A DNA stretch of 64,000 nucleotides from Ptychodera flava (taxonomy: Eukaryota; Hemichordata; Enteropneusta; Ptychoderidae). The stretch spans positions 25,988,115 through 26,052,114 of the forward strand of contig NC_091947.1 of the NCBI RefSeq assembly GCF_041260155.1. Reading direction: 5' to 3'. A program made the position numbers and the translations under genes. The notes beneath the pieces were generated by a model. It was not told the origin of the DNA, did not search any database, and worked only from the letters and a program-made list of their open reading frames with translations. Shown here piece by piece: positions 3,656 through 64,000 of this stretch (position 1 is its first letter; the number at the start of each line of letters is the position of its first letter).

Positions 3656-3662
3656 TATAAAT
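3656..3662 (+). promoter_or_regulatory. TATA box of the cytokine-like gene
   Basis: TATAAAT lies 107 bases upstream of the proposed start codon at 3769. A start site about 30 bases downstream would give a 5' leader of roughly 80 bases. A TATA box fits a tightly inducible gene such as a cytokine. No transcript evidence is available here. Confidence 0.45.
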
Positions 3663-3768: not shown

Positions 3769-6566
3769 ATGGAAATATTTACAAGTAAGTGAACGCGTCT
3801 CGTGTAAAACAATCACTTGTGCTATTCATAAGACTCAGAAGTTCATGGCCATCGGTTTGAAGTTATGTTTTATTACTCCATTTGCCCATTTTTACCGATA
3901 AGTGTATCTGCAGGTAAAGTATACAAAACAGTTTTTTTTTCTATTTCATATAATAGCTTTCAAAGTCACTTGGCTAATGTGCATCCTGTCCATCATGGTC
4001 CTGACATCAAAGGCAACGCCGTTGCCGGCGACTGGCTCAAGCTGCACGGACACGTGCGAAGGCTATAACCTGCTCGCCGCCGAGGGAAGTGTTGTTCGGG
4101 ACGATGTGTCGAATAAACTTGATAAATATGTAAGTTACATTGAAATTTGATCAAGGTAGATATGTTACCATGTATGGGGATAACCTGTCATTTCCAACGA
4201 TTCAGACAGATATCAGAACAGGTACTGGGTCAGTGCATTTGTAGGTTATAAGTGTCAGAATATCTATCGAAAAGAATGGTCAGTGCATGTGTACGGCGGT
4301 AGTTAGATTTTATTTCATTCGTGTTTTGGTGCACCGCAACATGTAAGTCGATACATGCAGGCCACGGATCGTCGGAACACGTTCGGTTATTTTGTCTGAC
4401 AATAGCTCATATTTACGCTTTGTAGTTTTATGATATATGAGATTTGCATCTAGATGGCAGCGAAAGCCAATAACAATACACTGATAACGTAAAAACGTCC
4501 AAGTTATCTTTTGCGTCTTGTCAGTTCTCCCCCCAAATCTAAAGCGTTCACTCTTTTGTATAGTACAGGCAGATGCTCGTGAAGGAAGAAGCTTCTCAAT
4601 CATACCCTTAACCTTGATCTTTATCCCTCTACGCCCCGCATCACATTCTTCTTCATTTTTGTTGTTGTTCATTTCGAAACAAACTTTCACAAAGGCTAAT
4701 GGTTTCTAGGCCGTGCTTAGCTTGAGAAGAGTTTGATGTGGTTTCAGAAGTCAGTTGTAGATTGCTTTTTGACACTCCTCAATACTCACTGAGAATCAAT
4801 CTTCAGAAAGGCAGTACCGATACTGCAATTTACACAAGTCTTTTTGTATTTTTAAGAGAATGCTGACGTACCAGCAGTGTACGCACATGTTTGTGCTGTA
4901 GGAGGTCACATTGTATGGATGGAGTATAACCTAGGCAATAACCAATGCGTTGCCAAGCACCGACCAAAACCTTTACGTTCGTCACTAATTGCACTCATGC
5001 ATTAAACGCTATATCATACTCGGTTCGTGTGTTAATCAAATTCATATCGGATGTCAAGCCTCAAACGCCAGGGCTTCTTCACTTAACGAGTGATAACAAA
5101 TTACAATCACAGGATATAGAGCAGTTGGTAACTATTCACTTAACGAGTGATAACAAATTACCTTCACAGGATACAGAGAGACCAGTTGGTAACTATAATC
5201 TTGAAGTGCCCTCTCTACCACCCATGAAACCTACATTTCAGAGAAGGAGAATGTCGGTAGGTATGAGAGCCTGACACTCATTATGCATGGCTTATTCGTT
5301 AGTGCTCATTCTTGGAAACCAGCGAGTCTCATTTCTCTATTCAAAATATTCGTACTCCTTCCTACTTGTAGTTTTTCTGCTTCTTAGTGTTCTACAATGG
5401 AGCTTCCTCACTTATCTTATATTATTGGCTAGTAAAGTCACCCATTCACTTTAGCCGTTTAATTTTCGTTTGTTCGTTCTTTATTGATCTGTCAAGTCCG
5501 TGTGTGATTCCGTTACGGATACATTCAAAATGACATCATCCGACTGACGCATAACGGACGATTTACGTGTTTGGTAAAATGCGTTCTGAGAGTATTATTG
5601 TGACGTCATATAAGAGTAACTCTCTAATATGGATGGTGTCATAAAAATCCTGTATAAATAGTGTAATAGTTAGGAGTTATATATGTTTCGAGAAAATTTT
5701 TACTTAATTTTGTTCTACTGCTTTCCTAAATCTGGCCAACAGATGTCCCGTAGTTTTCCTTACAAACTCTGAAAAAATACCATTTCTTCTGCAAAGTTGA
5801 CCGGCAAATGTGTTGTAGCCCTACGGAATAGCTACATAATCACGATAAAATCAAAATATGATCACAACTCACTCCTTTCTTTTCATGAGCAGGAAGTTGA
5901 CATCTTGCTTTATCACAAATCGAGTCTGCTCAGCTACAAGGAACACCTGGCGCAGATGATGGCAGAAGAAGATGACTTTGCAGAAATACCCTCTTTCGGA
6001 GCTGACTTCCAAAGCTTAATGTGGAGTTGTGATCGTGCCATCACCAAGGTAGATTCCATGGTAAGTCCTTTGCGTGGGCATTTAACAATTGTATAATGAG
6101 CATGTACGTCTTATTAGTTTCATCTGCCATGAAGTTTCCGTTCTCTCTTGTTATTTGGTGCATTCTTTTCGGAAACGAAACAGCCTAAGGGTGCAATACA
6201 AGTACTATCCCCTTACGGATCTACGTTGATGGCAGAATTAGGCAATGAAGAAGAAAACCCCATTAGGCTTATGTGCCCTTCTTGATCAGTAACAATCATA
6301 TATGAAGTGTTAACACAAAACCCGACATTCTTGTATGGTTCAAATATTCTGTTTTAAAGGCGTTTTACATTTCCTTTTCGTAGTTATGTGGAAAGGAATA
6401 CGACGATGTGATTCCTGACGAAGTAGAGCTCGACACGATCTCGGAAGCAAGCATCAGGCACTTTAGACAGAGGAAGATCTTACAGCAGTTCTATGACTAC
6501 GCCGTTACCATATTCCATGATGCCGAGTGGCTTCGTTTCAATGTCCACGGTTGCCCCTTCTCCTAG
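3769..6566 (+). CDS. Putative secreted long-chain helical cytokine, CNTF/CLCF1/cardiotrophin-like
   Basis: Proposed exons are 3769-3784, 3957-4129, 5170-5256, 5893-6060 and 6384-6566, giving about 208 residues. All sites are GT-AG; donors are GTAAGT in three of four introns, and phases are 1,0,0,0. The start has a strong context (AAAGATGG). Residues 1-25 form a signal peptide with hydrophobic core VTWLMCILSIMVLT. Helix A is about 39-63 (CEGYNLL...LDKY). The A-B loop is proline-rich (NLEVPSLPP), like CLCF1 FNEPDFNPP. Helices B and C are about 93-150. Helix D is about 172-200; KILQQFYDYAVTIFHDAEW resembles CNTF KVLQELSQWTVRSIHDLRF. FRQR before helix D recalls the FXXK receptor motif of LIF/CNTF ligands. 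Family ligands run about 200-225 residues. A tiny phase-1 first exon followed by phase-0 introns is, as I recall, usual for long-chain cytokines. The 87-base third exon is the least certain; without it the protein is 179 residues. It could instead be another helical hormone or an unrelated secreted protein. Confidence 0.6.
5078..5195 (+). repeat. 57-base tandem duplication carrying a duplicated splice acceptor
   Basis: Units at 5078-5134 and 5135-5195 share TTCACTTAACGAGTGATAAC and then a CACAG|GATA acceptor. The two acceptors (exon starts 5113 and 5170) are 57 bases apart and in the same frame. Either could open the A-B loop exon of the cytokine-like gene; the upstream one adds 19 residues. 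The copies differ by a few changes and a 4-base length difference near the end. Confidence 0.7.
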
Positions 6567-7370
6567 ACCGAAGAGTGTATCAACAATGGCAAATATCAGG
6601 TTTCAGATTTCTGACAGAGCGTAAAAAGGATTTACACATCAACATATTAAATGTTTTTAATCGATGTTAATATTATAGAATCGATGCTTTGCATATATTG
6701 TCAATTTTTACAGCGAGTTTTTGTTAGTTGTTATGGGATGCATCGTTTCAAAAAGTTAGCATTACATATGAAGACGATCTATAGTTAAGACTTGAAGTAT
6801 TGTTTAAGTATTGTCAACATTTAAAATATTGTATAATTTAAAGTATTATTCATTATTATTTTTTCCTTCACTAAGTTCTATATCTTCTTCATTGTTAATA
6901 TACGACCGTATCTTGTTTTCATTATGCAAATAATTCAAGCAGTTAAGCTTGACAGAATTATGATCAGCATATGTTTAGCGCCATCTAAATGACATATTAC
7001 AGTAGAATTGTGATAACCACCGTAAGATGGCGCTAACAGTGATTGTCAACAGTCCCATTTGGACACATTGACGCGTTGGTCGATAGTATGACAAAATTTG
7101 TCAAAACACTCTGCGAAAGTACTGTTATTATGTGATAACATGCGTTGCTTCTATGAAGTGTTTATTCAAAATACACAATGTGAAATAGCTCGTGATGAAT
7201 TCAAGGAAAGTTAGCATTAGATTTATACGAAATTATTTCTGTCAGGATATATGTGTATACTTCAATAGCAAATAAAAAAGTTGTATCGCAAGATGAGGTT
7301 CATATTCTCGTCTATTGTGTAACCATTGAAATTGCAATTTGCACGTGCTCATATCCATTTATACATAGAC
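6567..7370 (+). other. Probable 3' untranslated region of the cytokine-like gene and AT-rich spacer
   Basis: Very AT-rich sequence follows the TAG stop. ATTAAA at 6646-6651 and AATAAA near 7271 are candidate polyadenylation signals. A short inverted repeat (TAGCGCCATCT near 6977 against AGATGGCGCTA near 7025) suggests a tiny foldback insertion. No gene is seen. Confidence 0.4.
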
Positions 7371-7759: not shown

Positions 7760-8999
7760 TTTTTTTTTCTTTGAATTTTTTTTTTATTTATTTATTTATA
7801 TAAACATAAAACAATTGACAAAAACACGGTTCACAAAACAGAAGAAGAGAAAAGATACAACAAACGAAAGAAGGAGAACAAAGCAACAAAGGGGGTAAAA
7901 GGTGGAAAAGATTGGCATAAATTATTCATTTAGCAAATGTTTCAAGATATCCCACTTCCGGTGAAAACCCGAGAGTTGGTTTTTACGTTCACATATTTTT
8001 GCCTCTAACTTCATGACATAATTTAAAGTTTCAATAAACATTGCAAATGATGGTCTAATGTTACAGAATCGTATCGAATACAAATGATACTTTGCGATCA
8101 GAATGGCGTGGTTTAAAGCAAGAGATTTTTTCACTGGGTGAACACCAAAGATCACACTAAAATCATCCAGAGACACATAATCTCTGGAAGAGTGTTGCCA
8201 TAGCTTGTTAAACTCCTCCCAAAACCCTCTTACGTACGGACCTGAGCAGAACAAATGTTCTAAAGTCTCAGTATCACCACAATGTATACACGAATCATCA
8301 TCCACAACCTTCCATTTCTTTAAAAGGCTCTGACAGGCAATAATTCTATGTAAAACTTTAAAAACTTTAAATTGGAAACTTCTCAGTGTTTCCTCCATGG
8401 TAGTTTCAAAGGGAAGATTCCAGATATCTTTCCACGAAAAGATGCTGTTTGGATGGAGTTTTTCGTGCGCACATTGTGATGTTAGTGTTTCTACCTTATT
8501 TTGAACAAATGCTTTATAAAACAGTTGTGTACTGACATTTTCAAGGGAAAGTGTCTGTTCACTAACTGAAAAAAAATGGTTTCATCAAAACTAATTGTTT
8601 CTTCATGATTGTAATGTCTAAGTTTGTTTTTCCAAAGTGTAGGAATGGCATCAATAATTCCACAGTATGTCACGAAGTCCGTTTTAACATTATACTTCAC
8701 TTTGAAATCATGGAAAGACAGTGGAGTCCCATTTGGATTAAATAGGTCTCCTACAAAAGTAACATTTTTTCTAAACCAGTCCTGATAAAAGACAGATGAG
8801 ACTGCAACTAAAATATGTTGATTATTCCAAATGATTTGCCTTGCTACTTCTTGTCCATTCAAACTACAAATATTTTTTTTGAAAGGCGAAATATCTGACC
8901 ATGCTTGTAAGATAGTTTTATAAAAAGGTGGAAGTGTACATTTCAGTTTATCAACATTGTAATTACATTTAAGTACTAGCTTGAGACCTCCAAACTTAT
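7760..8999 (-). mobile_element. 5'-truncated non-LTR retrotransposon (LINE), 3' end of ORF2
   Basis: On the minus strand the frame reads the C-terminal part of a LINE reverse transcriptase protein. It begins with KFGGLKLVLKCNYN near 8995 and ends with a zinc-knuckle region (CIHC...EHLF) at about 8270-8210, stopping near 7922. The 3' end has a TAAA-rich tail and a run of A (T run on the plus strand near 7780-7760). One frameshift lies at a run of eight A near 8570: upstream and downstream parts align in different frames. The 5' end is cut off near 9000. The knuckle and spacing are L1/Tx1-like. Confidence 0.8.
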
Positions 9000-13756: not shown

Positions 13757-16700
13757 CTATTCAAGCAAATTCAAAAGTTCATGAATTACCTGAATTCGAT
13801 CATTCTTGCTGTCTGCCACCAGTATGTTCCCTTTGCTGTCTACTGTGACACCAGATGGTTCATTGAACTGTCCTGGTCCCATTCCTTTCTGACCAAACTT
13901 GCGAAGCAGTTTTCCTTCCAAGGTAGTTATGTAGACAGCATTATTTCCAAGGTCGCTGACAATGACTCGGTCTTCATAGACATCAAGGAAGCGACATTTA
14001 TGGAAGCTTAAATCCATCACTGGCTCAAATGGTTTGCAACTTCGGACACTGCCTTTCAGGTCAAACACAAATATGCGGCATGAATTCATGCTGATATCAA
14101 GGGTGACGATTTGACCTTGACCATCAATTGCCAGACCATAGGGGGATTTCAACATACTCCCGAAGCTCCTCAGGAACACTCCATCTGAACTGAACATGTG
14201 CAGCTTAATACGATCCTTTACCACTATATCACCCAATTTGGTGACAAGGACTGCAGATGGTCTGGAAAACTGACCAAACTTTCCAAGACTATACTTGAAA
14301 GCACCGCCGGGACTAAACACTTCTACTCGGTCGTTTGCATTATCCGTTACAATGTGATCTCCAGTCAGTGTTACACAAATACCCAGAGGGAAGCGCAGAC
14401 AGCCATGCTCCTTTCCAAAAGAACCAAACTTCTGGACTAAGGCTGCAGATACATCACATTTATCTCCTATCATGTTATCTAGATCAAGATCATCATCTGG
14501 CACCATGGGAACTGTATCTTCTTCCTTGGTACTGTCATTTTCTTTTACTGTTAAATGATAAATATCACCACTATCATCTTTCTCAATGGATTGTTTCAGA
14601 CAAGCAGCTGATGGTTTTCTTAATGGCCCACTATTTGGTGGTTTCTTCACCAACCATCTCTCTCTCCTACTTGACCCACTCGACATTGTTGATACACTTG
14701 AACATGGGGATGCAGACAAATTTACTGACTGCCTTTTTGATGGTGTTCCTGATGAACCACTCTTTTCATTTTCATATAATGAATTTTCACATGATTTACC
14801 TTCTCCATACTGGTGAGTCAGATCTTCTTTTCTCTCGATCAACTCAGCATGGTCGCCCTCGATTTCTTGGGATGTACATCTTCTTTTATCTAACAAACAT
14901 GCCCAGTCAGTGTCGTTAGTTTGACTTGATTCCAAACAATTGCTCCTTGATAAGTCAATGCCACTGGCATCCCATTCATTCTCAACTCTCTCATTTCTTT
15001 GAACGGATACACTACTATCACACTGAAGATAATTTTCATTCAGATCATATTTTCTTGTTTTAGTTGCCAACTTCTCCTCAGATTTAAGAGGGATGTAGGC
15101 AGAACTATTGTCACTGTCCCAATTCTCAGAGCACATCAATTGTACTGAAGACTGTATTGCATTTTCATTTGAATCACAAGTTTCTCTGCAGAACCTGCCG
15201 GAGTGAAGTAAAGGACCCTCATGATTCTCAGTGATTGTAGGAAAAGGCTCAGAATCTTTCACAGGAACCAGAGCAGAAACAGCATCGTCACGATTCTCAA
15301 CTTTTGAAGCAGTTGAGTTCCATTCAGCAGTTTTTGCAGCAACTGGGGAAGAAATGGAATTAAGACCCACAGTTCCTCCTCTAGGAAGTTCATCAAATGT
15401 ATCAACAGGCACATTTCTGTGGCCAGGACTAACATTAGAACTTGAACACTGGTCAGACTGAATCCAATCTCTAATCTTCAACAGGTATGATTTATCAACC
15501 CTTCCCCTCTGAGCCATCTGTTTACGCTCTTTTCCAAATGTCTTTGAGGCTTGAGACTTTTCTCGTCTACCACTGTCATCTTCAGCATCACTTTCCTCAC
15601 TGCATGATTTGCGATGGACTTGGATACAAAATGGGCTTCCTCTTATATGCTTTTTAAATAATGTGATGTACAGCTTGTACTTGCCAGCTATTTGAGGGCA
15701 GAGCACTAGCTTGTATGTACCATTCTTCTCAACATCATCAAGTAATTCCACTGGTTCTTCTCTTCTCATGTGGTTCTCTAGATGAACAGAGAAGTTGTTG
15801 ATGAGGCCACTGATATACTCACACCTTGTCTTGATAACGACTGTTTCCTGTTGTCCAACCACAGAAGAATATAACCCATCTCCATCAGCATAGACATCTG
15901 CTGAGGAGACCAAACTTTGTTGGATATCGCCAAAGCTCTCTCTAATTTGGCTCAAATCAGAAGATGTCATGTTAGTTTTGAAGAACAGTGCAGTTTCATC
16001 CCTTAGGTTACAGCTTGGATTACTGAATTCCTTTCTGTTGACTTCTGTAAGTCTAGCTACCAGTGTGTCTTTCATTGCTAGTAGTTCTGTATTATTGGCA
16101 TACTTAAGGATTTCCTCAGCTGCAGTCCAAGTATTCTGAAGTTGGTGACTGTTTTCACGAAGTCGCTTCTCTTCTTTGTCCAGACATTCCATCTTATTTG
16201 CACAGATACCCTCTAATTCACAGAGTGTCTCTTCCTCTTTCTCTTTTATCAAATTAATCTGGCATTCTGTCATTTCTTGGACTTCCATTTGTGCACGTTC
16301 AAGCCGTTGCTTCAGAAGTAGTTTAGCCATTGACGTTTCATGAATGGCTTTTGGCAAGGATTCCTTTGCAAGCTTCTTTGCATTTTCCACCAATTTACCG
16401 ACAACAGTTGGAAGTTTTGGTACTGCCATGGTCAAAGGAAGAGTATGATGACCACTGTAGCCATGGAGGTTGTCTTGACATGTCATACAGAAGGCTTCAT
16501 CACATTCATTACAATACAGCTCAAGAAGCTCTGTCTTATGTCTATTACAGTAGACCCCCCGTTCTTTTGAACACTGACACATGAGGAATTCATTGAGTTC
16601 CATGACTTTGTGCTCATTGAAGACTGCCATATGCATGTGCGCTGCAACACAATTAAAGCACAGATATTTGCTGCAAATGAGGCAATACTTCTTGGCTGGT

Positions 16701-17041
16701 AATCTGTTGTCACAGCTGGTACATGGAATATCTTCACCAACACTATTCCTGGTAGGTGCTTTACCGATGCAATTTAAGACATTTGCAGCCAAGACATTGT
16801 CTGTGAGGCCATGTACACCACTGCAAGGTAAGACAGACTTGGTTTTGCACAATCTACATATCACAGTAAACTCTGCCTGGTCTCGTTGTAAGCAGGATAG
16901 ACACGCTGTGTGCAAACACGGAAGGATTTTGGGAACACTGGAAGTCTCTCCACAGAGAAAACATTTTGGCAGGCTAGGATATATTTTTGTAATTTCAGCT
17001 GGATTGCTGCTAATTTCATGAGTCATAGTTAACTCCCACAT
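13757..17041 (-). CDS. TRIM-NHL protein: RING, two B-boxes, coiled coil, filamin domain, NHL repeats
   Basis: A single exon encodes about 1094 residues from the first ATG (17041); a second ATG is five codons on. Predicted parts in order: C3HC4 RING at 27-65 (CFLC...CLHTACLSC...CRLC); B-box 1 at 107-145; B-box 2 at 165-199; coiled coil about 220-330; filamin-type Ig domain about 365-480, with the family's KHIRGSPFCIQV ending; a serine- and acid-rich linker of about 390 residues; and five or six NHL repeats from about 870 to the end. RING and B-boxes make it a likely ubiquitin ligase; NHL propellers bind RNA or protein. Two B-boxes plus filamin plus NHL is the TRIM71/LIN-41 layout; TRIM2/3 have one B-box. 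The long linker is unusual. A good acceptor at 17070 (TTTATTAG) implies an upstream untranslated exon. I do not assign orthology. Confidence 0.9.
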   Translation of the reverse strand: MWELTMTHEISSNPAEITKIYPSLPKCFLCGETSSVPKILPCLHTACLSCLQRDQAEFTVICRLCKTKSVLPCSGVHGLTDNVLAANVLNCIGKAPTRNSVGEDIPCTSCDNRLPAKKYCLICSKYLCFNCVAAHMHMAVFNEHKVMELNEFLMCQCSKERGVYCNRHKTELLELYCNECDEAFCMTCQDNLHGYSGHHTLPLTMAVPKLPTVVGKLVENAKKLAKESLPKAIHETSMAKLLLKQRLERAQMEVQEMTECQINLIKEKEEETLCELEGICANKMECLDKEEKRLRENSHQLQNTWTAAEEILKYANNTELLAMKDTLVARLTEVNRKEFSNPSCNLRDETALFFKTNMTSSDLSQIRESFGDIQQSLVSSADVYADGDGLYSSVVGQQETVVIKTRCEYISGLINNFSVHLENHMRREEPVELLDDVEKNGTYKLVLCPQIAGKYKLYITLFKKHIRGSPFCIQVHRKSCSEESDAEDDSGRREKSQASKTFGKERKQMAQRGRVDKSYLLKIRDWIQSDQCSSSNVSPGHRNVPVDTFDELPRGGTVGLNSISSPVAAKTAEWNSTASKVENRDDAVSALVPVKDSEPFPTITENHEGPLLHSGRFCRETCDSNENAIQSSVQLMCSENWDSDNSSAYIPLKSEEKLATKTRKYDLNENYLQCDSSVSVQRNERVENEWDASGIDLSRSNCLESSQTNDTDWACLLDKRRCTSQEIEGDHAELIERKEDLTHQYGEGKSCENSLYENEKSGSSGTPSKRQSVNLSASPCSSVSTMSSGSSRRERWLVKKPPNSGPLRKPSAACLKQSIEKDDSGDIYHLTVKENDSTKEEDTVPMVPDDDLDLDNMIGDKCDVSAALVQKFGSFGKEHGCLRFPLGICVTLTGDHIVTDNANDRVEVFSPGGAFKYSLGKFGQFSRPSAVLVTKLGDIVVKDRIKLHMFSSDGVFLRSFGSMLKSPYGLAIDGQGQIVTLDISMNSCRIFVFDLKGSVRSCKPFEPVMDLSFHKCRFLDVYEDRVIVSDLGNNAVYITTLEGKLLRKFGQKGMGPGQFNEPSGVTVDSKGNILVADSKNDRIQVIHELLNLLE

Positions 17042-17456
17042 TCCACACGTGCTAGCCAACAACACAAAGCTAATAAAAGAAACATAAAAAAAATGAGAAA
17101 TTCATGATATGACAAAGGAAAGATAAACCACATTACAAAGATTCCAATGCTTCAAACTATCTAAAAGTTAAACGACACTGGAATGAATCTCTCAGAGATT
17201 TGAACAAATTAGTTCTGTACAAAATTAAATTCAGCTTCAGCATTTATCCAGTTAGGTCTGTCATGACAAAGTATGATAATTTACAAATTTACAAGAAAAT
17301 CTAGAGTATATTTAAGGCTAAGTTAGGATTGCGCCTTTTAACTGTCATTCTGCTCATGCTTGGTAAATGTATAACAATATTTACAGGAAAATCTAGACTA
17401 GGGTTCTTTGAGGCTATGAAAAAACTTTGCATTATATAAAGAAATTTACTCATTAA

Positions 17457-31900: not shown

Positions 31901-34900
31901 TTTTTCTGCAGTAACCCTTTAGCTCCTTCCCCTGTCTACGGGCATGTAGAAATTATCGAAGTCTAACACGTATAAGTACGGCTAAAACTACCCTGAAAAT
32001 GGGCGATTTCTGCCAAAATGCCTGGCAGGATAACATGCAGGAGAGCCAATCTTTTGCAGGCACATATTATGGGGCGGTTTTCTACTGACTTGGCAGGATA
32101 ACGGACAAGGGCGCTCGGCAGGAAAAGGGTTAAAGCACACCAATAAAACAGCTAGCCAAGCACTGATCACCTTGCTCATCATGTTTATGATGGATTATTA
32201 ACAGCCTGTAACTTGCACCGCTTCAAACAAAATTCTGCTCTCTCTGTCTCTCCTCACTCCATGTTAGTGGAAATAAATAGAATTGATGCACTTTTAATGA
32301 AGAGAAAAAGTATTTTCTATCCAAAACCGATCAAATTATTCTTACGTTGAGCTTTCAACACCTAAAAGGCAAAATTCCACAGAAAAATGAGTCTTACCTG
32401 TACAGGGTTGGTTTTGACAAAGTTTTGTGGGAATTCTTGTCTTTTGGCATTCATCATAACCTGTAGGCATTTGCAGAAATTACAACAATTATTATCTTCC
32501 TATATCATGGCCATGGTCCAATTTTACCTGCTTTGGAGCAATTGCAACAAATACATCATTTGAACTCCACTATGTCAGTAATGAACTTGTGTTTTATGCA
32601 ACCAATGTAACATTAGTGCTGACTTAAAAACTCAAAGTTGGTGGTAAATCAAGTAACTTGATCATGTCTCACTTTTATTCTATCATTAACCCGATGATTT
32701 ACAAGGACAAACCTGGTCTGATTGTCTTACTTTTATATTCAAAAGAGGGAGCAATAGGTATCACTATGTATATATGGGTTTCACTCTTGCAACCTTTCTT
32801 TTTGTTAAAGCATGATAATCAATAATCAGTGGTCACATTGGTAATGACCTGTGGCGCATTACTACTTGAGTTGTGATGATGCTTTTCCTATTGCACTGCA
32901 AAGCATTTACGACATGTTCATAGATGGACTGGAAAAACATGGTCCATCTATAGCCAGTTGTGAACTTGTTTCTCTGTTCTGTAAAGTAATACCCCCCTTG
33001 AGCATTTTGTATTGTAATTCGTGCAAAAAGATGCAGACAAACTGCCCATGCATGGCAATACTTCAGTGCTCACCTGAATTCTCTCAGATTGTGTTGCAAA
33101 TGGATACATCATTTCAAAGAAGATAAGTCCCAAGGTAAATATGTCAACTTTGTGACCATACTCTTTCCCAGCAATCTGAAGTGAAGAAGACGTTGTAAAA
33201 CGATAACAGCATTATGACCCGTGATAGATACTGTACACTTTATACCTCTAGCCTCATTAATGTTGTTAGGAAGTGGCTCATTCATTTTGTGCTTGGTCAT
33301 TTCTCCCATAACTACTTTATAGTTTTACAACCAATTTAGTTGGTAAAGTCAAGATGAAACAATACTGCCTTAACCCTTTCACCACCGTGGTTTGGACCAA
33401 TCCTACTGTTTGTCTATGGTAAAGTTACTTCTTCTATAGAAGGAAATCGGAGCAAAAGACTACTCAGATTACTGCATTTGAAGGTGGGGTCATTCTCTTC
33501 GGTAAGCTCATGGCCTACAATCAAAATTAACATCAGAAAGCAGTCTTCCACTCCACTGTTAATGATCGGGCAAAAGACTACTCAGATTACTGCATTTGAA
33601 GGTGGGGTCATTCTCTTCGGTAAGCTCATGGCCTACAATCAAAATTAACATCAGAAAGCAGTCTTCCACTCCACTGTTAATGATTAAGGATAAGGATATA
33701 TTATGTGGTGTGTATGAATAATGACTAGGGTGAAGTTCAGTCCCATAGCACATTGTTTCTGCGTGGACGTAAGTTGTGCAGAATATTTTCATAAATACTT
33801 CTGGTAAAATTTGTCCCATTCATAGAATTGGAAGTTCTCTAACATTACAATATTTATTAAACAAAGTTCATGATTGCATACATATGTACCTGTTCTGGGC
33901 TCATGTAAAGCTGTGTTCCAACTTGATCAGTGTGCTTCCTCTCAGGCGCATCTTCAACAGTTCGACCAGTTGCTGGCTGGATGTCCACCGCAGTCACTAG
34001 GCCAAAGTCCCCAACTTTCACTAACCCATCCATAGAAAAGAATATGTTTGATGGCTGGTGTAAAGGAAAACTGGGAAGCTCAGAATAGCAACAACAATAA
34101 AATGTCAAGGATAAGCATGACGTAACTAAAACATATTAATGCTTTAACCTCATTTCATATCAGGCTTTGGTAAAGATTTTAACCTCTTACTTATAAGAAC
34201 CTCAAACTATAATGACAAAAGTACACAAAGTTATTGTTAGTCATGACACTTGTCACAGGTGAAACTAACCTTCATATTAAAATTCTGCGGTATGACTTGA
34301 AAGATGACATACCTTTAAATCCCTGTGAATCATGCCAAGCTCATGAACATAATGTACAGCACTAACGATCTGCTGGAAGATATGTAAAACTTGCTGATTA
34401 TCTCTATTTACAGTGTGCTCAAGCAACCAGTCTTTCAGGGTCTCCTTCTTACACAGTTGCATTTGTATGTAAAGGTATGCCCTTTGTATGGGGGTTTTCA
34501 CATTCCTCTCAGCTGCGCAGAGTTTATTTTGAGGAGTCCTGTCGCCTTTTGAGCTCTGCACTTGTGCCTTGTCCACTGTGACACCTGCCAGTGAACTACT
34601 GTTCGTAGTCTCCTGTTTGTTGGCAGTGGTATTTGAGTCTGATTCTGTGGCACTTGCACTGAGCTTGTCACCACAGCCGGAGTCTTCAAACACAACACTG
34701 TAAGAGTCACTTTTCTCTGTCTTAGAATAATTACGAAATGGTACATTGTTCAGAGTGTCCCCACTTGAGGAATCAGAACTTTCATGATCATCTTTAAAAT
34801 CTATCCCAAAGGAACTCCCAGTCACTTCATCATGTAAGTTGTTGCCGTGGTAATCAACACTCCAGGAGCCGCTTTCATCTTCATCATCTTCAAGATCCAT

Positions 34901-37900
34901 GGGCACAAATCCACCACTTGCTCCAGTGATAACACCACTGTTCTGCCATTCTGAATCATTATCACTGCCACCAAATGGCTTAGTCTGGGCTTCAATGACC
35001 TCACTAGAGGTTTTTCCTTTCAGTCTGGGTGATTCTCGAATGAGTGACACATCCTTTGTGTACTCTGTGTAAGTGTTGAACGGTGTTGTTGAGTCACTGT
35101 CATTCAACAGATAAAATTTTAATATCACATACTGAAATTTTGTAGATGAGTGAAAGCAAAACTGATCAGATGAGCTTGGAACGCACTGCATGGTAAACAC
35201 TGAGAAATGTGAGTGAGTGACCTATTAGAAGTTCTTGGTGTTTATGAGCATTTGAATCAATCACTTGCAGTTGTAATCATTCTTCCTGCAGCCACCATCA
35301 GTAAACATCACAAAATTACGTACAGTGATAGTCTCATACATGTACTTGAAGAGCCTCCTCTGTCACATTTAATAATTGAAGTATTACACGTTAGTATCAT
35401 AACGAGTTAAATACTCTGCAAATCCAAAGATGACTTAATACCAATACATGTACATGTACCAGTGCCTTACATTGTGCAGTGTATATGACGATGGCTAAAC
35501 AAACAATATAAGCACTACATGAGAGAACTTTAAGTGAACATTTACAGTCACAAAAGTTCCACATAACCTCAGCTTTAGTAAAATACATGGAGATTTTCTT
35601 TTCCTGTGCAATTTCATGGCACAAATACCTCACTTACCCATTTCCAAGTGATTTGTCCTTTTCTTCTTGCCAGCCAACTGGTGGTGTTTCCAACCATGTG
35701 GCATAATATCTGACAATATTATTGTGTTGTAATTTAGCGAGGGCTTTAACCTCTCTCAACACTTTCTCCCTGGCCTTTTCCCTTCAAAATGTAAAGACAC
35801 CAAAGTAGATGAAATTGATGCTAGGAAAGAAAAAACCTGTGGATATTGTGAAGATCTTTAGTATGAAGAATTTTATAGACTACACATGAACAACTGAGTG
35901 ATTTGTCTTATAAACAATAAAATACACACTAAAATATTTTGTTTCATGGGCATTGGTTGTTAATATGCAGCAAATTAATGGGAGTCTCATACAGCAGTCT
36001 GCATACTTCAGAGTCAACAGCAGTTTTTCATCGAACAAAATTGAGGTAAGGTGAAATATTCATGTATACATTTTCTTGTTTTCAATGCAAATGAGAGCTT
36101 TATCATCATTTTGGATGAAAATAATGACATTTGTCAGAAAGAAAGCACTCTCCATGCATGCATCTCATCTCTCTGTTTTCCGACACCAACTCCTTATAGC
36201 TGCAGAGGATGGTTCATCCTGCATATTCATTGAAAGAAAGCAGGGTACCATTGGTATTACTATGGTCAAAACTTTCCATTAAACTGACTGTGAATAGAAA
36301 TAGCAGATTGCCAGAGGGTAAGATGATTGATTATACATGAAAAAGTTGGGACTTGTGCTATTGAAAACCTATGCCATAAGTGAGACATTTTTCAAACTCA
36401 GAAACAGCTTCCACTTTGGTGGTGTTTGTGAATTGGTTTGGACACATTCATCCTTCTTTCTAGGCTGGTCTATCAATCATAAGTCTAAATGCTAACTTTG
36501 ACCAAGTCTGGAGTTGAAATAGTTGAATATGCAGCTGACATCAGTTTTTGTGATTACCTGTCAGGAAGAGTAATTCTTTTAACAGCATACTCGCTATCAT
36601 CTAACTTGTTCTTGGCCTGAAACACAATTCCAAAACCACCTTTTCCTAGGCATAACTGCTGCTCAAAGTCTTCAACGTATCTGCAAAGAGACACAAGAGT
36701 AGCAATATGTCACACACCATTATTTCGCAACTCATGTCAAGCACAGTGCCCAGAAAAGAGCTAACTTGACTGTGTGCATTTCTTGATGTGTACTCTTGCC
36801 CTGTGGCAATTAATGTTGTTGACCTTACATATCCTGTGTTGTCTAGCACCTCTTTTGGTACATATATATATACGGTACGATTCTGCAAAGTCTAGCATCA
36901 ATCAATCAATCAATCAAACATAATTTATATAGTTCCAGAATCCAAGAAAAAAATATCTGTTCATTCTGCACAGTAAGCTAGTTTGAAAAGATGTGTCTTA
37001 AATTTGTTTTCGAACGTTTCCAGACTTAATGATTGACGAATTGCTTGCGGTAAGTCATGCCATAGTTTTGGAGCTCAGTTAAAGAAAGCACGACTGCCAT
37101 ATGTCTTGCATTGCTTTTCTGTCAAAGCCATGAATCTGCCTATTTGACTGTGAAGGACTCTAGCCAAGCAAAATTATGTCACTGGTGACTTTTGAAGTAC
37201 CGTAAATCACAAAATTTGTCGCTCTAGTAATTAATTGGCAATGAATGCCATAGGAGTTATTTAATTCTTATATACTATGCCCACTTATGGCACACAGCTT
37301 AGTTTCCTGGATACTGGTCATGTACGTGACGTAGGTCAGCCTGAACATGAGGATGCAAGTTACGTAATTTTGCTAGACTGGAGCTTAGTCTTTGTGAAAT
37401 ATTAGTTAGCAATTTTTAGGGCTTTGAAAATGCAATGCACAACGCTAGGTGTACTGGTAAGTTGTGAGTAGAATCATACTAAAACTGTGGAGAAGTTGAA
37501 ACAATATCTATGTGCAACATTCTCCATAAGAACTCCATTAATTAATATTGACAAATTGCACGACTATGGGTTGAACCATCATGACAGTTTCATGTACGAG
37601 TATTTCAAAATTAAGGGCATACACATATCAACTGTAACAATAAAGACTGAATGCTGTGTAGTGTCACTGAAGACAACATTAAAATTCACAGAAAGCCCAC
37701 CTACACTGATTATACCAGCAATGGATTGCTGCATATGCTAAGGAGAGGAAATTATACATATTAGTCCATTATTTACTTGACTGTTTCAACACTAGACAGT
37801 AACTTCGCACAACTTCATGTTAGAGAAATAACGAAGGTGTTAACTATGATTCCCGGCAAAGTTTCTTTTAAAGTGGCTAAAGATGATGTTTGTACCTGGA

Positions 37901-45796: not shown

Positions 45797-48700
45797 ATGT
45801 CGAACACGTCAACCGAGTTTATTTTCACGTTAGGGTATTGGTTAGTGGCACTGTGCCTGGCTGTACCACCTCAAGAGTTCCAGTCCGCCGGATTGACAAT
45901 TCAGAACCTTCTATCACACTGGCTTGGCAGCGAAGAGTTACACTTCGTGTATTATCACATGAAGAGGACCACAGCAACTGTCGTCTTTCATTCGCTTATA
46001 CCAATAGGTGAGAGCTTGTTCATCTCGGCTACAATTACGACAAGTTTTGCAATTCAAGCTGGAAATTAGATGGTGAAAAATGACACGATACCAGATCCTT
46101 ATAAAAGACCATAAACTTTTAAAACGAACTAAAAGTCTCAAAGTGTCATACCTGTATACTGTTTGTTGGTAGTGTATTTTGACAACTTTTCTATTTTTTA
46201 CTATTTTTTGAGAAATGGTGACATATCATGAGCAAGACAGGCAAAGTCAGTGGTGTAACAAGCAAACCCTTAATTCAGTCACAAATAATGAGATATCTAA
46301 AAATTTAAAATAAAAAAATAAACTTTTCACAAATTAAATACGGTGACACATCAGAATTTGTAAAATATTTAAAACACCTGATATTAAACAGCATTGTTGC
46401 AGTGTGAAACACAAAAAATAATTTCTATTTAGCCAAGAACATGTATTAAACATTTGTGTGTATAATGAGATATGTAAAATTCTAAATTTCTCAGAGTCGC
46501 TTACTGATACAAATTATGGTGCAACAACAGAACTTTGTAAATATTCTGTACGCATCTGATACAAAATCAAATTGTTGCTGTGTAAAACACAGCGAATAGT
46601 TTCTATTGTAGCAGTATAATTATATATGTATAATTGGCATTTAACAACGTTTATTTGTTACTCTCATTTAAAGTACCAGTAACAGATAGTAATCTAAGGG
46701 AGGAGTTAAGATGATCTGCAATCTTTGCATGTAAATGCAAATTACTTGTCAATTGATGTTCAATGTATTGGCCATCATAAAGCATTTATTTGTTTTCTTA
46801 TTACAGGATACTATATTGGCCTGGCCATCGCAGTGCCAGACTTAGATCTTTGGAATATCTCACAGGTCCGTCTACTCTGGAAGGTCTACTTGATATGTTC
46901 TGTCATATTCTGCATCGTAAGCTGCTCCCTTGCATTTTACTGGTCAAGGAAGAAATGGAACAATCACCCAATCGCCATCAAACTTGGTTACCTTGGAGAC
47001 GCCTGGAGAGCAGTGGCATCCTCTGTCAACATTGAATTCCGCAGAATTGACAAATTTGCCTCTGGTCCGATAGGGCGGAGGGTGATCGTTACAGACTCCT
47101 GGGTGATCAAGACAACAACTTACTCAATAGACATTGCACATCAGGGAGATGTACACCTTACCTTGGAAGAAAGCCAGACACATGATATCCACTATGAAAG
47201 CAACACAACCGTGCAGTTTCTGAACATCCGAGTGGACAGTGTCAATCCTCACACAAAATCCTTCAAAGTTAGGTTGGTAATGGAAAACTGAATGCAGGGA
47301 GGGGTTACGTGTTAAGTGATGACCAACTGCAAGCATGTGTAAAGTTTCTTGGATCCTGTTATAATTGTAAAATAATACTCAAATGGTATAAAAATTGTCA
47401 TCAGTGATGCCTTTTGAACTCTTTTGAATCTTCATACACACAGGGGATATAAAAATTGATGTACAATGCAATTTTGTGATTTTCCTGCAATACTCACTGA
47501 ACATGAAGGGTAATAGATGTACAAATCATTGTTTAATACTGTCATGCATTTCCTGTATGTCTAAACATCTTGATCAAATAAGAGTGCACATTTAATTAGC
47601 AGAAGTTAGAGTATTAGGAAGTGTAATATTTCTCCGCTCTTCTCTCATTAATTGACTTATTGCCGAAGTATGCTACATTATATCAATTTTGATGTCATCT
47701 ATGGTATTTGTTTGAACTTACACAAGTGAAACAAGTATTTCCCACAACATGCCATTCTGAATCTATTGCTTGTCGCTCAGGCAGCTTTATACAAAGTGTA
47801 CAGCACAATGTCACTTTTGTACATAAAAGGGATACAGTCATTGGAACGGTCGTATGGGATGCATATGACCAATGTAAACACTGTATCCAAGGTATATAAT
47901 GGTGATTGATGAAAGTTAAAACATGTCTGTCATAATCTACATTGTATAATTTAAATGTTGCAGCTATGATGATGAGGTGCATCTAGATATCATGCACAAA
48001 ATACATTGTTTGTAAACAAGAAACTTGCTCAGGCACAGTTCCAACGACTGTTTCCCTTTAATCAAGGTTGACGTAAAAATGCAACAAAGTGTTATTTCAT
48101 ATAAATTGTTGTTATTTAAATAATTTTTTCATCTCAGTGTGCTCTGATATATTCTTGTCTTTTTGTCAGATTGAATTCCATCGAGTACAATGACTTAAAG
48201 GATAAGTTATCTGCACCAATCAGAAATGTTAGAAACATTCTTATTCACCAATCACTGACAGATAAATTTCTTGAAACTTTCCGGGACCAGGTTCAACTGA
48301 ATCCAGTGTATCATCTCCCAAGTAATGCAGTTGTAAGTGTTTCTTTTAAGTAACACATTATTTCTTAGATTTTCCAGAATACATGTAAAGCTCACTGATT
48401 ACATGTAAGAAGAAGTGAATTTATTCCTACTACAACATACAGCACTGCTGACACAAATCTCAGCAATTATCATTCTACTGTTCATAAACTATAGTATGCA
48501 GTATAAATTAAGGTTACTCACAATGCTCCTTGATTCGTCCACTCGGACATTGTTTACTGAAGGCTCATTTAATTCTATTCATGTTTGAACAGTTTAAAAT
48601 CTAATGTCAAGATTATTTGTGAAAAGTATGCTCCTAAATAATCGATTGTGAGTTACAGATTCAAGAGTAAAGTGTATTAAAAGCCAGTGTTTGTAGGTGC

Positions 48701-55887: not shown

Positions 55888-58800
55888 TCAGAGTCCTTTG
55901 TTGAAATATACTGTTGTTACATCGGGGTTTGTTTTCTTAATGCTCTCTTGTAGTGCTGGTTCCAGTTTACTAACTGCCATTGAACTGTAGACGAATAAAA
56001 GAGTTTGGCATAAATGAATCGAACATTTGACAATTTGTGTGATTGAGAATCAGTTCGTATACATTTTTGAAGTGTATATGTCTGTGGTAGCTGATGCAAT
56101 GATGCTGATGTTGACGACTTTTTTAATATTGATAACTAATCAATGAGCTGTAAAAGTGGTCGAAAACAGGAAATATTCATCACAATTGCACAGTCTATCA
56201 CAAAGGTGCAGAGAGGTGGTACATATGGAAACTCATTAGCAATGATAGGTTGAAGGAGCATAAATGTTCATTTCCAACATCATACAGACATAAATTACCC
56301 AACAAATTGATGACAGTCCTCATGTCTTTTTCGTTTGTTTTGACAATGTTATATGCTTACATTGACACCAATCTGGACTTCAAATGGACCGTTATCATAA
56401 AAGGCTACTACCATAAGCACGGAGTGGAATGAGAACTGGCTTGTCTCGCGTATACAAGTAAGTATAAGTCAGTGAGTCACAGGTAGTGGTACTGACCCTG
56501 CATTGAAACAGCAAGGTTACTCTGATTGACTGTGTGTAAACACATTAAAAGCTAGTCTCACCTCTTTTGTGGGAAGATTGCACAGCACATTGGAGTTGCA
56601 AACACAAGACTGAAAAGAAAGAAAGAGGCAAGTCAGCATATTTTTGAATTCTACAATCCCTCACAGCAGCTTTCTCTTCATTAAACTACTGCAAAAGTGA
56701 AATCCATGTTGGTGTCTGGAGAGTCAAAAGTGAACACAGATGGAAAACATTTTGGAAAGACAAAAACCACTGTTCCATCGGAACAAACTCAGTAAATGGA
56801 CTCTGTAACAGTTTGCTCTTCATGACAATGAGGCTGGAAAGCCAGGAAATACGTGGGGCAGAACAATCTTGAGATACTTGTTGAATTGCTGATGAAATAA
56901 TAAAGAATAGGATATTGCAAATGAGCTTCTCTTCCGCTCAACTGCAATGATCTACAAAAAGATGCACTCTTACATAAATGCAACACAACGAAAGAAGTGT
57001 AAACGTTTTCAATTTTAATATCAAGACATATGCGTCAAATCTATTCTTTCTTACACATTTACTACTGCACAAACAAATCACACCTCTGAAAATCTAGCTC
57101 TTAACATTTTCTTCCAGGAAATGGCTGAACACTGAATTTTCTTGTACAGGGTCATAAAAGGTCAAAAACGCAAAACTTTTGTAATCACATGGACAAATTC
57201 CTCAGAAGACAAATATTAAACTCTTTCATCACCATAGTTTGACCAAATCCCATCGTTATCTATGGTGAGTGTGGACCTGTTCACTGGCAATTGGGGTGAA
57301 CAGGTTAAAAAAGTTGCTGGACTTACCATAAACCTACAAGTCCTACTTGTATCGGGGCATTGAGATAGGGAAACCTTTTCAAGAATGATTTCTTCTCAAG
57401 GACATTCATAATAAGTGGAGGAATCACTGGCAAAGAGGCAAGAGAATAAGATTAAATGATTGAAAGTACACACAGTAAGATTAGAAGCAAAGAATCTCTT
57501 GAATTATATCTCCTATTTAGTAACACAACATATTCTTCCATTGGAGGACATAAAATGTATAGCCTGTGTGAAATCATAAAAATATAAAGACATCTTGGCT
57601 CATACATGTACATGACTCAAAGAGTGGTACACTATCCCATTATTAGCCAGAAATTTTCCTGAATACAGGTTAAAACTGAAACCATTACCATCACTACATG
57701 TACATTTTTAATATTAGAATGCAATTTCCATGGCGAGTGCAAAATAATAAAGATAATGGGTAAAATATGTTCAACTTACTCATGCCTGGCGCAGCCATGC
57801 TAACTCTAGATAGAACCACCATTGAAATAGCTTTCTTAGCTGCCTTCTGCGATTCTCCCAGTTTGTTTCCATTTTCATCGACCACAGTGATTCCCGATTC
57901 CAGTTCCCTCATCCTCATCATGGGTATATTGACACAGTTGGCAGCTGCCACAGCAGCGAAGGGAACATATCGACCAATCAGAGGAGGAGCTTTCTGGATG
58001 GGGAGAGGTATAAACAATGTTAGAAAGCAATGACAGTTACTGTACTGAAATAAATATCAGCCACCATACATATACTTTTCCAAAAGTGATTGCAGAGTTT
58101 TGAATTTTGTTAGAGAATTGAAGTGTCTCTATGAAATAACTTAAGAGTTAAATCATTTTCACATATCTTTAATGAATACAACATAAAAGTTGTTTAATAC
58201 AGTACTCACAGGTACAATATTATGTATCGGAAATGGAGATTTTCCATTGTTATCACACAAATCCTACCGAATCAGAATGAGTTTGAAAAAACAAATCCAA
58301 TGCCTCTGTCAAGATGAGGCACTAACAAAATGAATTTGATAACATACCGGTACGGTACATAAAACATCCTACCAAGGATGCCATCGTGTACCAGTATTTG
58401 CTTACCCCAAGATTAATTACTAAAACTACAGAAAGAAAATAGTGCTCAATCAAAGTGAGCCCATAAATTCTTCAGTTACACGTTCTCAACCGACATAAAT
58501 TGCTTATGGCCACATATACTGGTTTATTACAATCAACATGGATATTATGTGGAACATCAGAAAATACTCTGGCAGGAACTGTAAACCCAGTGAAACGCAT
58601 GTTTGTCAAACTGTACACCAGTACTTACAGATACTAAGCTGTTCAGTCCTAATGCTGTTACAAGAGCACCACCAGTAGCTAGGATGTATGATTTCACCAG
58701 CTGACTGAAAGATTACGATAACATTTTACAGATAATGTTATAAATTGTACATGTATTATTTATGTTGAAACAATCACAGAGGTACAAGATTTCAGAGCAT

Positions 58801-61517: not shown

Positions 61518-62889
61518 TTAGCAATCTCTGATTTTTGCCTTTAAATTTCTGCAGAAAACAAGAGGGTTGTGATCAATATAAACCACTATTGGCTGATTTG
61601 AAGAAGTAACATAAACTTCAAAATGCTGTAAAGCTAATATCAAAGATAAACACTCTTTTTCAATTGTAGAGTAGTTTCTCTGGGATTTGTTAAATTTGCG
61701 TGAAAAATAGCAAACAGGATGATCTATACCATGACTATCCTCTTGCAATAAAACAGCACCAGCAGCCGTATCACTAGCATCTACAGCTAATTTGAATGGC
61801 AAAGTGAAATCTGGTGCAGACAACACTGGGGCACTTTGCAGTATGGCTTTAAGTGTATCAAATGCCTGTTGCATTGCTCTGACCAAACAAACTTTACTTT
61901 CTTTTTAAGTAAGTTAGTCAAAGGCTCAGTAATTGTGGAGAAATTTGGACAGAATTTTCTGTAGTAACCAGCCATACCGAGAAAGCGCATCAGTTGTCGT
62001 TTGCAGTTTGGTATGGGAAAACTTGAAATGGCACTGATTTTGGCATCAACAGGTTTTACCTCACCCTGTCCTACAGTATGTCCGAGGTAAGTCACCCTCG
62101 CCCAACCAAACTCAGATTTGGCAAGGTTGACAGTCAACATTGCTTTACTCAGTCTCTCAAAGAACTTCCGCATGAGCTTGATGTGTTCCTCCCAGGTGTC
62201 ACTATACAGGACGACGTCGTCAACGTAAGCTGCACACCGTCTAGCCCGGATATGACGTCGTTGATCATCCGTTGGAACGTTGCCGGAGAGTTCTTCATTC
62301 CGAATGGCATCACCTTGTACTGGAACAATCCGTCTGGTGTAACAAAGGCGGATATTTCACGAGCACGATCCGTCAGAGGGACTTGCCAAAATCCCTTCAG
62401 TAGGTCAAATTTCGTCACATACTTGGCTTTTCCCACTCGGTCGATGCAGTCATCAATCCTCGGGATTGGGAAAGTGTCTGTCTTTGTTAAAGTGTTGACC
62501 TTCCTAAAGTCCGTGCACATACGATAACTGTGATCTGATTTGGGAACAAGTATACACGGCGAACTCCAGTTACTTTTACTGGGTTCAATAAAGTCATTGT
62601 CCAGCAGGTATTTGACTTCTTCCTGGAGATATTTTGCTTTTGTTGGATTCAGTCTGTATGGATGTTGTTTTACAGGCTTACTGTCCCCAACATCAACGTC
62701 GTGATAGATGACGTTTGTCCTCGTTGGAACATCTTGAAACAGGTGTTTATATTCGTGGAGCAGTTCTTTCACCTGTTGTTGTTGTTCTGGCTGGAGGTGT
62801 GCCAACTTTGTAGACTCCAGCTTCTCCAGGATTTCTGAGTTCTGAAGCTTGACCGAGCCCAGCTTTGAGTTTAGAGTATTTTCACTCAA
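61518..62889 (-). other. Reverse transcriptase and RNase H region of the Gmr1-like element
   Basis: Landmarks of the Ty3/gypsy reverse transcriptase are visible (SPCILVPKSD, FRKVN, FDLLKGFWQVPL, MPFGMKNSPATFQ), followed by RNase H (LAVDASDTAAGAVL, CYFSRKF, YIDHNPL). This is a fossil region of the larger broken element. Confidence 0.9.
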
Positions 62890-62968
62890 GTCAGTTTCAG
62901 TATCACTATCTTCATAATGGTTTGAACTGACTGCACTGACAGGCTGAGTTATAGTAGGATTATCCCTA

Positions 62969-64000
62969 TCACAAATATGGCTTAAGCATATTTATGTGAC
63001 ATAGCTGTTTTTGTTTTCGCCTGTCAGGTGTTATTATGATGTAATTTAAATCACTCAATTTCTTATCAATTAGGTATGGCCCAAAGTAACGAGCATGGAG
63101 TGGTTTGCCAGGAATTGGAAGTAGAACAAGAACTTTTTGACCTGGTTCAAACTTCCGTTTTGAGGTGTTTTTATCGTATTTGGTTTTCATTGACTGCTGA
63201 GATGACTCAAGATTTTCTCTGGCTAATTCACATGCTTTAGAGAGTTTTGTACGAAAATCTGACACATATTGCAAATATTCAGACAATCATCATCGTCTGA
63301 TAGGAATTTCTCTTTAACGAGCTTAAGTGGGCCACGGACTGTATGTCCAAATACAAGCTCAAATGGGCTAAAACCAAGAGACTCTTGAATTGACTCTCTA
63401 ACAGCAAAGAGCAGAAAATGAATTCCTTCATCCCACTGCTTCTCTGTGTCAAAACAGTAGGTCCTAATCATGTTTTTCAAAGTTTGATGAAATCGCTCAA
63501 GAGCACCCTGACTTTCTGGATGATAGGCGGATGACCTATACTGTTTAATGCCTAGCTGATCCATTACTTGTTGAAAAATACCAGACATAAAGTTGGAGCC
63601 TTGATCGGACTGGACACATTTAGGGAGGCCAAATAAAGTGAAAAATTTGACTAAAGCTCTCACTATAGTCTTTGTCTTTATGTTTCTCAGTGGTATGGCT
63701 TCTGGGAACCGGTTGATGTACACATAATTGTCACATGTACTCATTTCCTGATCTTGTTTTTGGTAGGGGCCCAAACACAGTCTATTAGTATCCTACTAAA
63801 TGGTTCTTGAAATGCAGGAATTGGCTGTAAAGGGGCCTTTGGAATGGTCTGATTCGGCTTTCCTACCATTTGACATGTGTGACAAGTTTTACAGAAATGT
63901 GCTACATCCTGCCTGAGATTAGGCCAATAAAAGTGACTGAGAATTTTATGATAAGTTTTCCTGACTCCTAAGTGACCAGCCCAGGCGTTTCATGGGCCAG
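62969..64000 (-). other. Integrase region of the Gmr1-like element
   Basis: The zinc-binding segment (HLGVRKTYHK..., CKTCHTC) starts at the right edge. The core follows with VQSDQGSNF, YHPESQGALERFHQTLK and a C-terminal part with FEPGQKVLVLLP and FGPYLI. It lies upstream of the reverse transcriptase in the element's reading direction. Confidence 0.88.

Follow-up and report, generated by a model that had tools for sequence, protein, structure and literature searches.

A five-exon gene of the acorn worm Ptychodera flava as a candidate for a divergent long-chain helical cytokine

Background

A survey from 2026, covering 18 metazoan phyla or subphyla, reports interleukin-6 (IL-6)-family cytokines from vertebrates only; it traces IL6R-like receptors to molluscs and names such receptors of Ciona, Saccoglossus and sea urchin (PMC13203501). 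A second study describes GHl of amphioxus, with reportedly several related genes, and states that acorn worms and sea squirts yielded none (PMC9010856). Here, a five-exon gene is described at positions 3769–6566 of a 64,000-nucleotide stretch of the acorn worm Ptychodera flava (assembly GCF_041260155.1, contig NC_091947.1, positions 25,988,115 to 26,052,114), termed the window, whose numbering is used throughout. A preliminary description had proposed that this gene encodes a CNTF/CLCF1-like cytokine. Judged from its sequence, the product on balance appears to be a divergent long-chain class-I helical cytokine that is secreted and related to the IL-6 type, with CNTF nearest among the proteins compared.

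The survey accepted matches at BLAST E ≤ 1e-5 and 30% identity (PMC13203501). In phmmer searches of the Protein Data Bank (PDB), human CNTF, LIF and CLCF1 gave no mutual matches even at E ≤ 10, and G-CSF matched IL-6 weakly (E 0.42). Because CNTF, LIF and CLCF1 fail to find each other, a gene like this candidate would probably be missed under the survey criteria. No report of a CNTF/LIF-like gene in an invertebrate was found among the open-access literature matches listed, which is no proof of absence.

Gene structure and rarity by chance

The five exons of the preliminary description were confirmed: they lie on the + strand, are separated by GT-AG introns with phases 1-0-0-0, and join into an open coding sequence (CDS) of 627 nt including the stop, which specifies 208 residues. 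The coding part of exon 1 (3769–3784; 16 nt) encodes MEIFT and the first base of T6, ending in phase 1, and its donor scores higher than 99.65% of + strand GTs. Exon 2 (3957–4129) carries the remaining putative signal peptide, C35, C39 and predicted helix A, and ends with NKLDKY in phase 0. The 29 codons of exon 3 (5170–5256; phase 0-0) specify the presumed proline-rich A-B loop. Exon 4 (5893–6060; phase 0-0) encodes C138 and two predicted helices, B and C, which a short loop connects. Exon 5 (6384–6566) contributes C150, the C-D loop, predicted helix D, C205 and the stop.

Around the ATG, position -3 is a purine and position +4 is G. Pattern scans for consensus sequences located a possible TATA box (TATAAA, 3656–3661, +) 113 bases upstream of the ATG and two possible poly(A) signals, ATTAAA (6646–6651, +) and AATAAA (7271–7276, +). 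The presumed 3′ untranslated region (6567–7290, +) is 69% A+T and contains four ATTTA pentamers, at 6630, 6819, 6836 and 7221. A scan for bacterial promoters and terminators, which is not relevant to this gene, found nothing.

The gene model is real, beyond chance expectation. A template search combined an ATG with a hydrophobic start, phases 1-0-0-0 and a stop; exon sizes were varied around the model's own, and splice thresholds were set post hoc at its weakest sites. This template recovered a single start in the 64-kb window, at 3769; the reverse strand gave no hit, and neither did any of 20 Markov-simulated 64-kb sequences. Twelve models pass from start 3769, and by splice score the one described previously ranks first among them.

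Base composition and codon usage were also compared. Exons have an overall GC content of 0.47, against 0.34–0.40 in the introns and 37.8% in the window. The codon-usage scores of exons 2, 4 and 5 were equalled or exceeded in a fraction of 0.22, 0.06 and 0.15, respectively, of the open background windows, so that only exon 4 approaches significance. For exons 2 and 3 a different frame gives the higher score, and the CDS taken as a whole reaches 0.034 in frame versus 0.036 in the third frame. Codon usage lends the gene model no clear support.

Exon-intron architecture

Relative to the predicted helices of the candidate, introns follow helix A, precede helix B and lie close to where helix C ends. 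The layout is a tiny first exon, followed by exons for helix A, the A-B loop, helices B and C together, and helix D. IL6, G-CSF and GH have phases 1-0-0-0 with the same exon placement; the literature searched gave no phases for the IL-6 family. Exon sizes in the IL-6 and G-CSF genes are of the same order as those of the candidate. LIF intron 2 and the sole coding intron of CNTF lie in phase 0 after the tyrosine that ends helix A, and the candidate intron follows Y63 in phase 0. Published descriptions give five exons and four introns for the IL-6 and G-CSF genes, as in the candidate.

Assignment to the class-II cytokines (interferon/IL-10) was considered and rejected. In fish type I interferon genes all four introns are in phase 0 (PMC4929537), and the pattern of the candidate is 1-0-0-0.

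Protein features and predicted fold

The N-terminus resembles a signal peptide, being hydrophobic enough for a simple hydropathy filter. Cleavage near S23-K24-A25, a pattern judged by eye, would leave 183–184 residues, compared with the mature length of about 180 given in the preliminary description. Borne out were the motifs Y-N-L (42–44) and L-D-K-Y (60–63), both in exon 2, and the proline-rich A-B loop, which corresponds to exon 3 (P68, P77, P80, P81 and P84). The motif F-R-Q-R (175–178) and the stretch KILQQFYDYAVTIFHDAEW are both encoded in exon 5; the former had been placed before helix D and actually lies within the predicted helix D segment (165–200).

Prolines of the mature part comprise two in the N-terminal arm and five in exon 3, followed by those at residues 125, 159 and 206. 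P125 falls between presumed helices B and C, and P159 lies in the C-D loop. Between these positions are four proline-free runs, of 38, 40, 33 and 46 residues, a layout with p 0.00035 if prolines were placed at random; the same test gives p 0.00025 for LIF and p < 0.05 in 5 of 11 known cytokines. Smoothed helix propensity yields exactly four segments (residues 41–62, 90–119, 131–153 and 165–200), a number also obtained in 111 of 5000 shuffles; of 19 proteins, 3 show it (the candidate, CNTF and EPO). The prediction of a signal peptide and four helices is supported, and the proxies agree in part with an up-up-down-down four-helix bundle.

Comparison with CNTF and other cytokines

Among 12 cytokines compared pairwise, CNTF gave the best alignment, with a score exceeding those of shuffles and decoys; the resemblance to CLCF1 and cardiotrophins that had been suggested was rejected in the same comparison. 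In the unconstrained alignment, F175-R-Q-R178 (codons at 6462–6473, +) is placed opposite CNTF F152-E-K-K155. The available text of PMC10022904 defines the FXXK motif and assigns LIFR contacts to CNTF F152 and K155.

Several results weigh against a cytokine of the IL-6 type. Only CNTF scores high among the compared cytokines, and an exon-matched CNTF test is weak. The FXXK-like site claimed earlier survives in part: the phenylalanine and a basic residue are kept, but the lysine is replaced, giving F-R-Q-R rather than FXXK. The site-1 tryptophan (W64 in CNTF and W94 in CLCF1, as given in the available text of PMC10022904) is not in exon 3, and W64 aligns to arginine. A check against CNTF/LIF profiles, which the preliminary reading had called for, gave an hhalign score only at decoy level and no family-profile match. 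The Pfam scan of the candidate returned no families, and the PDB sequence search no usable match. A helical moment is seen in predicted helix C only, and the predicted C-D gap is short, at 11 residues versus 22 in CNTF (21 if helix D starts at F175).

Because three tested features of the CNTF/LIF group are lacking, the gene is not filed in that group, and it is doubtful that it encodes a CNTF/LIF-type IL-6-family cytokine in an animal outside vertebrates. The cytokine interpretation is supported in part: the gene is a good candidate for a helical cytokine, but CNTF/LIF membership is not established. A pattern search in a set of genome contigs matched 24 stretches, none encoding a relative. One viral locus showed 28% identity over residues 76–147, with an exact PPMKPTFQ; the E-value refers to just two candidate stretches, and the match was taken as chance.

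Proposed mode of action

The product would be secreted and fold as an up-up-down-down four-helix bundle. A disulfide between C35 or C39 and C150 may fasten its N-terminal arm to the end of helix C, resembling LIF, for which PMC10022904 gives the disulfides C34–C156 and C40–C153. The ligand might then join two receptor chains of the gp130/Domeless type, with putative contacts through helices A and C and through the A-B loop and the start of helix D (F175, R178). Joining of the receptors would lead to activation of JAK and STAT. Use of LIFR or CNTFR-alpha is not to be assumed, because arginine replaces the lysine and the site-1 tryptophan is missing.

Alternative readings

The gene could instead encode a class-I helical cytokine of another branch, either amphioxus GHl-like or of an unassigned ancestral type, acting through a GHR-like receptor. 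The 1-0-0-0 phase pattern is shared by GH, but human GH1 reached a Z of only -1.5 to 0.1 across five schemes. Identity with GHl was a serious possibility because the lengths are equal: amphioxus GHl, a type-I helical cytokine, likewise has 208 residues, and the available text mentions several genes related to such cytokines in amphioxus (PMC9010856). The B. japonicum ghl primers P19 and P20, as given in the available text of PMC5376476, nevertheless fit the CDS no better than shuffled sequences, with mismatches of 12/25 and 9/23 against shuffled means of 11.1 and 10.0, although the species may differ. Identity with the published GHl gene was rejected on these mismatches, subject to the same species difference, and the other-branch reading as a whole is considered unlikely.

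Similarly improbable is that the product is an unrelated small, secreted and mostly helical protein whose CNTF similarity and exon pattern are coincidental, aided by the choice of a CNTF-like candidate. The negative profile and family searches, the single high-scoring cytokine and the weak exon-matched test speak for such a coincidence, whereas a CNTF score above shuffles and decoys, the phases 1-0-0-0 and the layout of prolines and helices speak against it.

Of all splice sites in the model, the acceptor and donor of exon 3 score lowest. It is the only open phase 0-0 exon of 30–330 nt in 4160–5870 with both splice scores of at least 0; relaxed thresholds give 11 candidates in the same interval. 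A 44-nt unit is tandemly duplicated across its acceptor (5078–5178, +; copies at 5078–5121 and 5135–5178, 93% identical), and the copies are spaced 57 bp, in frame, so that two possible acceptors result. Use of the second acceptor would extend exon 3 in the 5′ direction (5113–5169, +) by 19 codons to a 227-residue product, for which both the acceptor score (-1.9) and the CNTF Z are lower. Because the duplication spans the acceptor, forms of 227 or 179 residues are conceivable, and the A-B loop is perhaps variable in length. A real gene with exon 3 mis-assigned to this extent, or a locus that is a decayed copy, is very improbable, as the 208-residue form gives both the best CNTF alignment and the top splice score, and the joined frame is open.

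Neighbouring features of the window

The Pfam scan covered exons 2, 4 and 5 and 17 other open reading frames (ORFs) from 253 stop-to-stop ORFs of at least 60 residues. Directly downstream of the candidate gene lies a zf-RVT (reverse-transcriptase-associated) ORF (7925–8581, -), and retroelement pieces (reverse transcriptase, RNase H and integrase) occur near the window end (61521–63792, -). A long unbroken ORF (13760–17101, -) represents a TRIM-type gene; its B-box, filamin and NHL matches exceed the Pfam cut-offs, and a weak RING match falls below the cut-off. Further exons match the kinase PERK/EIF2AK3 (34280–35221, -; 32/61 aligned residues identical to PDB 4g31_A by hand count, a level that fits an invertebrate without proving one), TMEM129 (46710–47288, +; Pfam Tmpp129, E 2e-45) and sideroflexins (57697–58056, -; E 1.4e-31).

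Significance and comparison with known systems

If the doubtful CNTF/LIF-type reading is true, the gene would encode the ligand so far lacking for those IL6R-like receptors that have been reported from invertebrate deuterostomes. The ligand–receptor pair would then be older than vertebrates, and the five-exon, phase 1-0-0-0 gene ancestral. A candidate ligand would make the time of origin of IL-6-type ligands directly testable by experiment, and the exon-phase template offers a route to finding further such genes.

The candidate resembles CNTF in the positions of predicted helices B and C (66–95 and 107–129 in mature numbering, versus 63–94 and 106–129 in CNTF) and in B-C and C-D loop prolines at similar positions. 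It differs from CNTF in having arginine in place of K155; CNTF also lacks a signal peptide, and only one intron interrupts its coding sequence. Compared with amphioxus GHl, it lacks similarity to human GH, GHl itself having been compared by primers rather than by protein sequence. Its mature start, T-P-L-P, recalls S-P-L-P in LIF, and it shares with LIF and OSM two N-terminal cysteines and one cysteine close to the end of presumed helix C. In its proposed role as a secreted JAK-STAT ligand outside vertebrates, it would parallel insect Unpaired.
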